The position numbers and the translations under genes were made by a program. Below are positions 28,397 to 64,000 of a DNA stretch of 64,000 nucleotides, piece after piece. How positions within the stretch are numbered: the first letter of the stretch is position 1; the number at the start of each line of letters is the position of its first letter. Source of the stretch: Pyrinomonadaceae bacterium (lineage in GTDB: Bacteria > Acidobacteriota > Blastocatellia > Pyrinomonadales > Pyrinomonadaceae); the NCBI GenBank assembly GCA_025054715.1, contig JANWYH010000004.1:1-64000 (forward strand), given 5' to 3'. The notes below the pieces were generated by a model. The model was not told where the DNA came from, did not search any database, and saw only the letters and a list, made by a program, of their open reading frames with translations.

Positions 28397-28484
28397 AACA
28401 TCAGCCTCCCTTTTACATAGGTGTTGGCTCAATCACTCATTCGTTTGAGACGAACTCTGCAGAAGATTCTTTCGCCTTTAGATT

Positions 28485-28596
28485 AACTTCATGCCTCAGA
28501 GCATGAAGTTTCCTGCTTCATCGAGACTTTACGCCTCTCCGCAGGCAAGTTTGGGTGATTGCTACCCAAACCTTGTAGAGCTAGATTCTTGCTCTA
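28485..28596 (-). ncRNA. Structured RNA resembling an IS200/IS605 right-end omega-RNA, without transposase
   Basis: Read on the minus strand from 28596, three hairpins follow one another: TAGAGC/GCTCTA (28596-28576), CAAGGTTTGGGT with ACCCAAACTTG (28575-28546, one bulged G), and AACTTCATGC with GCATGAAGTT (28510-28485, six-base loop). Between the second and third lies a core in which CCTGC (28545-28541) can pair with GCAGG (28516-28512) around a small GAGA/TCTC stem. The core text, with GTAAAGTCTCGATGAAGCAG, is very like the right-end region of IS200/IS605-type elements that encodes the TnpB guide RNA scaffold. No tnpA or tnpB is within the window, and zapA is only 100 bp upstream, so this is either a solo remnant or a stand-alone guide RNA. 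If a guide exists, it would begin at 28484. Confidence 0.6.
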
Positions 28597-28602
28597 TTGA
28601 AT

Positions 28603-28630
28603 ATTTTATTTCAAAATAAGACTCTGTCAA
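28603..28630 (-). promoter_or_regulatory. Sigma-70-like promoter for the omega-RNA-like element
   Basis: TTGACA (28630-28625), 16-base spacer, TAAAAT (28608-28603) on the minus strand. Transcription would begin near 28596, exactly where the first hairpin begins. The -35 is perfect and the -10 has 5 of 6 matches. Confidence 0.65.
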
Positions 28631-28696: not shown

Positions 28697-29011
28697 CTAC
28701 GCAACATCCTTTTGCTTGAGAATCCTATCCAGCATCTCAGCGCATTCAGCGCTCCGAATAGCTAGCTGCCTGTCGTTTTGTTCTAAAAGAGTTTTTAACT
28801 GATATAATTCATCTGCTATATGAAGCGCTGCTAAAATTGCAACCTTTAAGCTATCTACCGTTAAAGTCTCCGAAGCAATCTCTCTCATTTTCTTATCAAC
28901 ATATTCGGCGAGGCGGATAATGTATTCCTTATCTCCATCAAAACGAATATTATAAACCTGATTGTATATTTCAACCTTGATAGATTGCATTTTTTCTTCT
29001 TTTTCCATCAT
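28697..29011 (-). CDS. zapA: Cell division protein ZapA
   Basis: 104 residues. SIKVEIYNQVYNIRFDGDKEYIIRLAEYVDKKM is the ZapA globular head, followed by a helical coiled-coil tail ending near KTLLEQNDRQLA. ZapA bundles FtsZ filaments at the division ring. Met 8 (MQSIKVE) is an alternative start. It overlaps the coiled-coil gene upstream by 4 bp. Confidence 0.9.
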   Translation of the reverse strand: MMEKEEKMQSIKVEIYNQVYNIRFDGDKEYIIRLAEYVDKKMREIASETLTVDSLKVAILAALHIADELYQLKTLLEQNDRQLAIRSAECAEMLDRILKQKDVA

Positions 29012-29289
29012 TTTTGCATTAACTCCGCCACAGCAGGTTCTAAAACTGCCATTGCATCAAGCATTGCCTCTATTTTCAACTGAACTGCATCTCTTTCATT
29101 CATCAAACGCTCAACTTTTTCCTCTAATCGTGCTTTCTCCTCTAGCAAGCTCGCTATTTCATGCCTTAGCGAGCTTAATTCTCGTTTTAGTCTTTCGTTT
29201 TCATCCCGCATCCTCTTTGCATATTCTATTGTCAGATAAATCTTATCTTCTAGGTTGGAGAACTTTTCCATTCCTATAGAGTTACTCAT
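29008..29289 (-). CDS. ZapB-like coiled-coil protein
   Basis: 93 residues, nearly all one coiled coil (heptads through YAKRMRDENERLKRELSSLR and EEKARLEEKVERLMNERD). Its place directly before zapA with a 4-bp overlap, and the same short length, suggest a ZapB-like partner in the division ring. Similarity between coiled coils is weak evidence, so the name rests mainly on context. Confidence 0.72.
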   Translation of the reverse strand: MSNSIGMEKFSNLEDKIYLTIEYAKRMRDENERLKRELSSLRHEIASLLEEKARLEEKVERLMNERDAVQLKIEAMLDAMAVLEPAVAELMQK

Positions 29290-43369: not shown

Positions 43370-45652
43370 ATGTCAGACTTAGAAGCATACAAAGACAAGT
43401 TTAACGAAAGCGGAAAGCGTATTCTCGAAAGCGCTATAAATGAGTCTCGCAGACGAGACCAGAATTACATAGCTGTTGAACACATACTCTATGCTCTGGC
43501 AAACGAAGAGACAGAGCTTTTTAATGAAACAATGCGTGATCTTTCCATAGATCCGAGAACCGTTCGTCTTCAAATTGAAAAACGCCTAGAACACTCTCGG
43601 TCACACACGGGAAGAGGTTTTAGAATTGCCCCAGAAACGACCGAGCTTTTTAAGCGCTCGATGGATAGAGCTCGAGCATCGGGTCGGCGCGTCATAGATT
43701 CAACTGATATTTTTTACATACTAACTCATGATGAAACCAGTCTTCTCAACGATATACTGAGCGATCTTGGAGTTCCTGCTTACGAAGTCGCACAAGCTGC
43801 ACGGACAAGACTCAAAAAGCGCGAGCAAGAAGCAGAAAGACTAAAACGAAAATACGAATTACCTTCTTACCTAAAACACTTCGGAGTTAGCCTCAATAAG
43901 CTAGCTCGCCAAGATAAACTACCGCCAACTATCGGTAGAGAAAAAGAGATCCGTCAAATAATAGAAATCCTCTCTCATAAAGAACGATCAAACTCGCCGA
44001 TGCTTGTTGGCGAACCTGGTGTAGGTAAGACTGCCGTCGTCGAAGGTTTGGCACGCCTGATCGAACTAGAGCCTGAAAAGGTTCCAGTGTGGCTCAGAAA
44101 TGCCCACATAGTCCAGCTACAGATGGGTGGAATTGTAGCAGGCACAATGCTTCGTGGAATGTTTGAAGAAAGAATCAAAGGTATCATTGACGAAGTAAAG
44201 GAAAGACCTGAAATCATACTATTCATTGATGAAGCTCATACGATCATTGGAGCCGGTGCTGCCATTGGAGTGTCTTCAGACGCAGCAAATATGTTCAAAT
44301 CTGCACTAGCAAGAGGTGAGCTTAGAATAATCGGTGCTACCACTTTAACCGAATACAAAGAGTTCATTGCTGAAGATGAAGCACTAGCTCGACGCTTTCG
44401 TTTAGTTAAAGTTGAAGAACCTAGCATAAGCGAAACTAGAGAAATTCTCCTAGGATTGAGGCCCAGACTTGAAAAAAACTACTCTGTCACAATTTCAGAT
44501 GAAGCAATAAACACCGCGCTCGAAATGGCTCCGAGATATTTGCGTAATCTACATTTGCCAGATAAAGCTATCGGTTGGTTAGATACGGCTTCCGTAAAAG
44601 TTAGAATTAACGAGCCTGATTCTATGATTGTAAAACCCGAGCATATAATCGAAGTCATTTCGCAAGAATCTAGAATACCAAAAGACATGGTCTATCGAGA
44701 TACCTCCGATAGATTCGCGAAAATGGAAGAGGCACTTAGCAAAAGAGTAATCGGCCAACAAGAAGCTATACGAGCCGTAGCTCAAAGACTCCGACTAAAT
44801 AAAGGACCACTCAAGGAAAACTTCTATAAACCTGACGGAGTCTTACTTTTCCTCGGACCTACTGGCGTTGGGAAGACCGAATTAGCAAAAGCTGTTGCTG
44901 AGTTCATGTTCGGCGATGAAAAGAAAATGATCAGAATTGACATGTCAGAGTATGCCGATGGGACTGTGGGAATAGAAAAACTAATTGGAATGCCACGCGG
45001 AATAGTAGGTTCAGAAAGAGGGGGAATTTTAACTGAACAGTTAAGAGAAAATCCCTACACCGTTTTACTGCTTGACGAAATTGAAAAAGCCTCGCCATAT
45101 CTGATGCATCTTTTTCTACAAGCATTTGACGAGGGTTGGATCACGGATGGGCGCGGCAAGAAGGTCTATCTTTCAGATGCTATAGTCATAATGACTTCAA
45201 ACTTAGGTTCAGAAAACTTCAGAAAATTTGAAAAACCACTTGGTTTCGGTAAAAAGTCACTCGGAGATATAAAGGCTATAAAAAACGAAGTCCTAAAAGC
45301 CGCCGAACAAAGATTTTCACCTGAATTCCTGAATAGAATTGACGAGATAGTTGTTTTCTCGCCTCTTACTATGGATGAAGTAAAAGAAATCTCAAAACTT
45401 TACCTAGATAAGTTAAGCCAACAGATGGAAAAATTAGGAAAGAGAATCGAAGTTACAGAAGAGGCTTTGAATCTGTTAACCGAAAAAGGATTCAGTGTGA
45501 CCTACGGAGCTCGCTTCTTAAAACGCCACATAGACGAAAAAGTCAAATTGCCAATTACAAACAACTGGAAGTCTGCTTCTTATTTTGTAGTTGACGTAGA
45601 AAACGGCGAAGTTGTTGTAAAGCCTGAGACAAAGCCGTATTCACTTAACTGA
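43370..45652 (+). CDS. ClpA-like AAA+ unfoldase with atypical pore loops
   Basis: 760 residues from ATG 43370, preceded by AAGGA six bases upstream. The open frame extends upstream to 42986 but there it is antisense to the lipoprotein gene and lacks Clp homology. Clp_N repeat (FNESGKRILESAINESRRRD), AAA1 (GEPGVGKTAVVEG, ILFIDEAHTIIG), no ClpC/ClpB middle domain, AAA2 (GPTGVGKTELAKA, VLLLDEIEKASP). ClpA length and layout. The ClpP-docking loop region may be PLGFG. The pore loops differ: AAA1 has AGTMLRG where KYRG is usual, and AAA2 has GIVG for GYVG, so both substrate-gripping Tyr are lost. ClpP and ClpS are not encoded nearby. Confidence 0.88.
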   Translation: MSDLEAYKDKFNESGKRILESAINESRRRDQNYIAVEHILYALANEETELFNETMRDLSIDPRTVRLQIEKRLEHSRSHTGRGFRIAPETTELFKRSMDRARASGRRVIDSTDIFYILTHDETSLLNDILSDLGVPAYEVAQAARTRLKKREQEAERLKRKYELPSYLKHFGVSLNKLARQDKLPPTIGREKEIRQIIEILSHKERSNSPMLVGEPGVGKTAVVEGLARLIELEPEKVPVWLRNAHIVQLQMGGIVAGTMLRGMFEERIKGIIDEVKERPEIILFIDEAHTIIGAGAAIGVSSDAANMFKSALARGELRIIGATTLTEYKEFIAEDEALARRFRLVKVEEPSISETREILLGLRPRLEKNYSVTISDEAINTALEMAPRYLRNLHLPDKAIGWLDTASVKVRINEPDSMIVKPEHIIEVISQESRIPKDMVYRDTSDRFAKMEEALSKRVIGQQEAIRAVAQRLRLNKGPLKENFYKPDGVLLFLGPTGVGKTELAKAVAEFMFGDEKKMIRIDMSEYADGTVGIEKLIGMPRGIVGSERGGILTEQLRENPYTVLLLDEIEKASPYLMHLFLQAFDEGWITDGRGKKVYLSDAIVIMTSNLGSENFRKFEKPLGFGKKSLGDIKAIKNEVLKAAEQRFSPEFLNRIDEIVVFSPLTMDEVKEISKLYLDKLSQQMEKLGKRIEVTEEALNLLTEKGFSVTYGARFLKRHIDEKVKLPITNNWKSASYFVVDVENGEVVVKPETKPYSLN

Positions 45653-61990: not shown

Positions 61991-63953
<1,963 letters not shown>

Positions 63954-64000
63954 TCTACCAATAGAAAAACATTTTTGAGAAAATTTTGCAAACTAATCAG

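Follow-up and report, generated by a model that had tools for sequence, protein, structure and literature searches.

An orphan scaffold homologous to TnpB guide RNAs between the promoter and the gene of 6S RNA in a Pyrinomonadaceae bacterium

The 6S RNA locus and its hairpin element

The DNA analyzed here, referred to as the window, is a stretch of 64,000 nucleotides from a Pyrinomonadaceae genome. In the direction of transcription, its minus strand carries a putative zapA gene, a promoter, a hairpin-rich element and a 6S RNA gene. The first of these (28697..29011), taken from the list of open reading frames and recognized by the motif LAALHIAD, is named zapA (cell-division protein) on the basis of this motif, which is common to relatives, and of synteny. 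Directly upstream of it and downstream of pheT, a small coiled-coil-like open reading frame at 29008-29289 on the same strand was noted by eye and possibly encodes a second cell-division accessory protein. A promoter scan located a -35 box TTGACA (28625..28630) and, 16 nt further, a -10 box TAAAAT (28603..28608), which together match 11 of 12 consensus bases and form the best promoter in the 2 kb scanned. The 6S (SsrS) RNA gene, upstream of which zapA lies, had been missed in an earlier, sequence-only reading of the window. The RF00013 model matches 28468-28259 over all 187 positions with 57.3 bits, directly downstream of the element and on the same strand, and an end stem formed by GGCGAAAG and CTTTCGCC extends the gene to 28476-28251. 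At a distant site of the window, a TPP riboswitch was detected on the minus strand at 63851-63956 (70.7 bits).

Comparison with related genomes assigns the promoter to 6S RNA. The gene order of relatives is zapA, promoter, 6S; their -10 box is followed by 7-8 nt and then by GGCG(A/G)AAG, the 6S 5' end, and their 6S starts at GGCGAAAG right after the promoter. The position of the -10 box in the window is supported by this spacing, and both boxes follow the zapA stop by about 70-90 nt, as do the 6S promoters of relatives. The distance from zapA to 6S is 228 nt here and 99-122 nt in most relatives in which the two are adjacent, with longer exceptions of 136 and 209-496 nt. Removal of 28597-28479 restores a 7-nt spacing and a normal 6S promoter and start; the resulting sequence, TAAAATATTCA-AAGGCGAAAGAATCTTCTGC, aligns with TTATATTTTTCAAAGGCGAAAGAATTTCTGC of the sister species, and this empty site also aligns with the genome G001 and other relatives. 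The order and spacing in relatives and the restored site identify the promoter as the native one of 6S, with the element placed at the start point of that gene. A promoter joined to hairpins and a core had been reported from the sequence alone, and all of these parts were found as described; the claim that the promoter is the element's own did not survive the comparison with relatives. Promoter and downstream transcript belong to 6S RNA (RF00013), whereas the element itself lies outside the match to that family, which spans 28468-28259 only.

The element occupies the minus strand from 28597 to 28479 between promoter and 6S gene and measures about 119 nt, with a left boundary that is uncertain within about 28602-28592. 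The minus-strand segment 28476-28597 folds with -48.9 kcal/mol compared to -27.8 +/- 3.4 kcal/mol for shuffled sequences (z -6.3), and none of 200 shuffles was as good. Successive hairpins had already been noted, three in number; the hairpins stand, and the predicted fold contains four. Hairpin 1 (28577..28595, AGAGC-9 nt-GCTCT) is given by the fold, and on inspection a hairpin stands in the equivalent place, ahead of hairpin 2, in two scaffolds described below, those of Rhodothermus phage RM378 and of an Aquificaceae contig (L139). Hairpin 2 (28547..28572, GTTTGGGT/ACCCAAAC), supported by fold and alignments, lines up with the GGGxxG-GAA-CxxCCC hairpin of TnpB omega-RNAs. It is followed by a RAGATH-18-like core (28510..28545, CCTGCGGAGAGGCGTAAAGTCTCGATGAAGCAGGAA), which can be spelled by parts, from 28545 to 28511 or so, as CCTGCGGA-GAGGC-GTAAA-GTCTC-GATGAA-GCAGG. 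According to the alignments, the element ends with hairpin 3 and a 7-nt tail (28479..28509, ACTTCATGC-TCTGAG-GCATGAAGT-TAATCTA), the counterpart of which in the tnpB of Thermovirga is GCTCCATGC-TCTATA-GCATGGAGT-AGTTCAC. All nine pairs of hairpin 3 are kept, four of them with changes on both sides. Hairpin and tail span 31 nt alike in the window, RM378, L139, L091 and Thermovirga, so that the right boundary, with the same length as in tnpB-linked copies, agrees with the scaffold's own end.

Homology to TnpB guide-RNA scaffolds

The covariance model of RAGATH-18 (RF03064) recovered the core with 33.1 bits; this falls short of the gathering cut-off (44.9 bits), yet the genome-wide E-value is 1.9e-4 and the match is the sole one among 40 related genomes. 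RAGATH-18 RNA forms the core of the guide RNAs of IS607 TnpB (PMC11061315), and the match thus lends independent support to the resemblance to omega-RNA that had been proposed from the sequence alone. HEARO, the IscB-associated RNA, gave no match up to E = 10 in a local Rfam scan. The three covariance models that had been suggested for this region therefore returned a positive though sub-threshold RAGATH-18 match, nothing for HEARO, and a 6S RNA that is the neighbour of the element and not the element.

A search pattern built from RAGATH-18 and the window element was found in more than 117 GTDB contigs. tnpB lies directly upstream in 23 of the 41 copies with enough upstream DNA, and all ten neighbouring open reading frames tested carry the TnpB domain PF07282; judged by sequence and neighbourhood, the pattern family is a TnpB guide RNA. 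A covariance model, R1, was built from 38 of the copies, with the window excluded. The window element receives 31.9 bits (E-values of 2.8e-7 within the window and 1.1e-5 genome-wide), inside the range of copies in related genomes; the pattern was partly suggested by the window, so the core is no independent test. Independently of R1, a blastn search of the element against phages returned a single record, Rhodothermus phage RM378, and the best plasmid match lies in Thermovirga lienii, at the 3' end of an annotated transposase of the tnpB type. Both matches are clear guide-RNA scaffolds by R1 (68.2 and 55.5 bits, respectively). Two further blastn matches, one in a related genome (G419, GATGAAGTTAATCTA, E 0.004), which is no scaffold by R1, and one on a Rhizobium plasmid, were taken as chance.

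A gap-free alignment of the window element, RM378 and L139 extends over the 67 nt from the core through the 3' end, with 43 identical positions. A common structure of 25 pairs is paired in 98.7% of the cells, with 7 pairs changed on both sides, a count that rests on three sequences only; none of 500 shuffles attained this level of pairing and covariation, nor did any slid structure. The local alignment scores of the element with RM378 and L139 are 46 and 50, whereas 2114 control slices from the window reach 25-26 at most. The core and the hairpins that omega-RNA scaffolds conserve are both present, and by alignment and structure the element is genuinely homologous to the omega/reRNA scaffolds of TnpB. 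The description as very like a right-end guide-RNA scaffold is hence borne out by RAGATH-18, by R1 and by covariation with RM378 and L139, and the stretch 28479..28597 is annotated as an orphan scaffold and putative right-end remnant on these grounds and on the overlong spacer between zapA and 6S.

With TnpB omega-RNAs of the RAGATH-18 type (IS607 TnpB, ISFba1; PMC11061315) the element shares the core CCTGYGGAG...CGATGAAGCAGGAA, the flanking hairpins and a guide position directly 3' of the scaffold. Unlike them, it has a short inner hairpin in the core, with 13 nt between GGAG and CGATG, and a tnpB neither adjoins it nor occurs in the genome. The segment at the guide position (28459..28478, AAGGCGAAAGAATCTTCTGC), directly after the scaffold end, is the 5' end of 6S, which is conserved in relatives. 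An overlapping 20-mer (28479-28460) matches in the genome itself and two sites with three mismatches, and the genome holds no second target for the guide-length segment with fewer than three mismatches. The proposal that the sequence after 28485 is a guide that may name a target is thus replaced by a simpler identity: the segment is the 6S 5' end, and its good match is its own flank.

Orphan status and solo scaffolds in other genomes

PF07282, PF01385 above its cut-off and the Y1 transposase domain PF01797 are absent from the genome, which is 99% complete, and from the sister species. The statement that the window lacks tnpA and tnpB is accordingly upheld and extends to the whole genome, and the usual location of an omega-RNA at the 3' end of tnpB or overlapping it is found neither in the window nor in the genome. 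The element is single-copy. By blastn, no real homologue was found in 40 relatives or in 118 other genomes of the family, and a pattern scan of 396 genomes of the phylum yielded the window copy, plus matches unlike the scaffold. Since one genome carries the element, its intact hairpins could reflect either recent arrival or selection. At its left edge, the peptide SKNLALQGLG, in frame with SMKQE, resembles the C-terminus of TnpB and is a possible truncated tnpB tail; a tnpB C-terminal HMM did not detect this 11-residue candidate at a significant level. Between native promoter and hairpin 1, no left end was recognized.

Solo scaffolds of this kind are known: only 64% of RAGATH-18 RNAs adjoin an IS607 tnpB (PMC11061315). 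Close counterparts of the window element are those in RM378 (NC_004735.1) and the Aquificaceae MAG contig CALIUI010000044.1, which share with it a 36-nt core, a 31-nt 3' hairpin and tail, compensatory changes and the lack of an adjoining tnpB, and differ in their 3' end (TAGTTCAC, as against TTAATCTA in the window). Unlike the window element, they adjoin baseplate or conjugation-type genes. In RM378 (L231 2485-2600, about 25.63-25.75 kb of the phage), a complete solo scaffold scoring 68.2 bits is flanked by Rm378p028 and a T4-baseplate-like gene, and none of five neighbours is a TnpB. Unlike the window genome, the phage has a tnpB about 20 kb away; the PF07282 protein is encoded at 45382-45582 with no R1-type scaffold near it, and the distant scaffold may serve it in trans. 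The Aquificaceae copy (L139 3698-3796, 68.9 bits) is a solo short-core scaffold at the end of an open reading frame, in a run of genes that by eye looks related to conjugation and includes a TraC-like ATPase and a TraF-like peptidase. A literature search on solo or orphan TnpB guide RNAs, incomplete in its coverage, returned nothing specific. What is unusual about the window element is its place, under the 6S promoter at +1 and fused to 6S.

Gene-less copies with two ends occur as well. On contig C4 of the family member G022 (L211, L218, L222), two solo scaffolds lie about 670 bp apart. In both, the scaffold is joined to a common left-end-like sequence, and a third copy follows tnpB; the solo copies appear as MITE-like derivatives within the same family as the window genome. 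This pair was considered as parent of the window element and rejected, being of a different type with a longer core. Rumen Ruminococcus MAGs (L088, L117, L119, L138, L148) contain several gene-less copies in which a common left end (GGCAGCCGCAATCCC...GGCTTTAGACGGTGGGTTAAGG) is joined to the scaffold. They form a MITE family equipped with a guide-RNA scaffold, and the guide differs from site to site.

Origin of the element

The likely explanation is that the element is the right-end, omega-RNA remnant of a TnpB element inserted at the 6S +1 position, which now forms a 5' leader of pre-6S RNA and is a fossil rather than a new guide-RNA system. A TnpB-carrying element of the IS200/IS605-IS607 superfamily, probably tnpB-only and IS1341-like, would have inserted at the 6S transcription start. 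Its left end and nuclease gene would then have been deleted in place, unless a gene-less unit arrived, and the right-end scaffold would have been left behind. Neither a left end nor a target-site signature proves transposition, which counts against the insertion. RNA polymerase starting from the native 6S promoter would transcribe the scaffold first and then 6S. There is no terminator-like site between the two, and readthrough is therefore expected; the fusion RNA would carry the 6S 5' end at the "guide" position. As the cell lacks TnpB, the scaffold most likely does not function as a guide and would at most represent a structured 5' leader that needs to be trimmed from 6S. The 6S RNA of E. 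coli is likewise made from a longer precursor.

That the scaffold arrived already without tnpB, as a non-autonomous unit of the MITE or PATE type moved by the transposase of another element in trans, is rather unlikely. Solo scaffolds are common (tnpB is missing within 2.5 kb of 18 of the 41 testable copies), those of Ruminococcus and of G022 share a left end, and RM378 and L139 hold solo scaffolds of the same short-core type. The element also resembles PATE/MITE derivatives of IS200/IS605 (PMC7290912, PMC3119063) in being short, with the structured right end kept and the genes lost. Such derivatives have both ends and several copies per genome, whereas here the right end is matched, no left-end sequence is found from the native promoter to hairpin 1, and the genome contains one copy. 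The reading as a structured leader or regulatory element native to 6S and unrelated to transposons is extremely improbable: the element lies co-linear with 6S and would share its transcript, but it is absent from the 6S genes of the 29 relatives examined, and it matches TnpB scaffolds with high significance in both sequence and structure.

A solo or domesticated guide RNA had been the reading favoured from the sequence alone, with a transposon scar as its alternative. The orphan scaffold without a transposon gene is there, and the scar fits better than domestication. A guide RNA expressed from the 6S promoter and serving a TnpB-like protein in trans would profit from an intact structure, a strong promoter and a segment at the guide position, and is nevertheless very improbable, given that TnpB is lacking in the genome and the sister species, that the guide segment finds no target beyond its own flank at fewer than three mismatches, that the element is not conserved in 119 family genomes and that the promoter belongs to 6S. 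A fusion RNA of scaffold and 6S that is functional and made from the 6S promoter is a long shot: an incoming phage or plasmid TnpB could load the fusion and cut the uninterrupted 6S alleles of relatives, or the leader could tune 6S maturation. In the former case, the carrier would be spared, since the scaffold end replaces the native ATTCA before the AAGGCG... of the relatives' 6S alleles.

As a remnant of a TnpB element, a striking orphan structure is explained without a new system, and the compact solo scaffold type shared by a thermophilic phage and an Aquificaceae contig deserves a study of its own. The locus illustrates that a guide-RNA scaffold can survive the loss of its nuclease and land under the strong promoter of a housekeeping RNA; a domesticated guide RNA could arise from such raw material.
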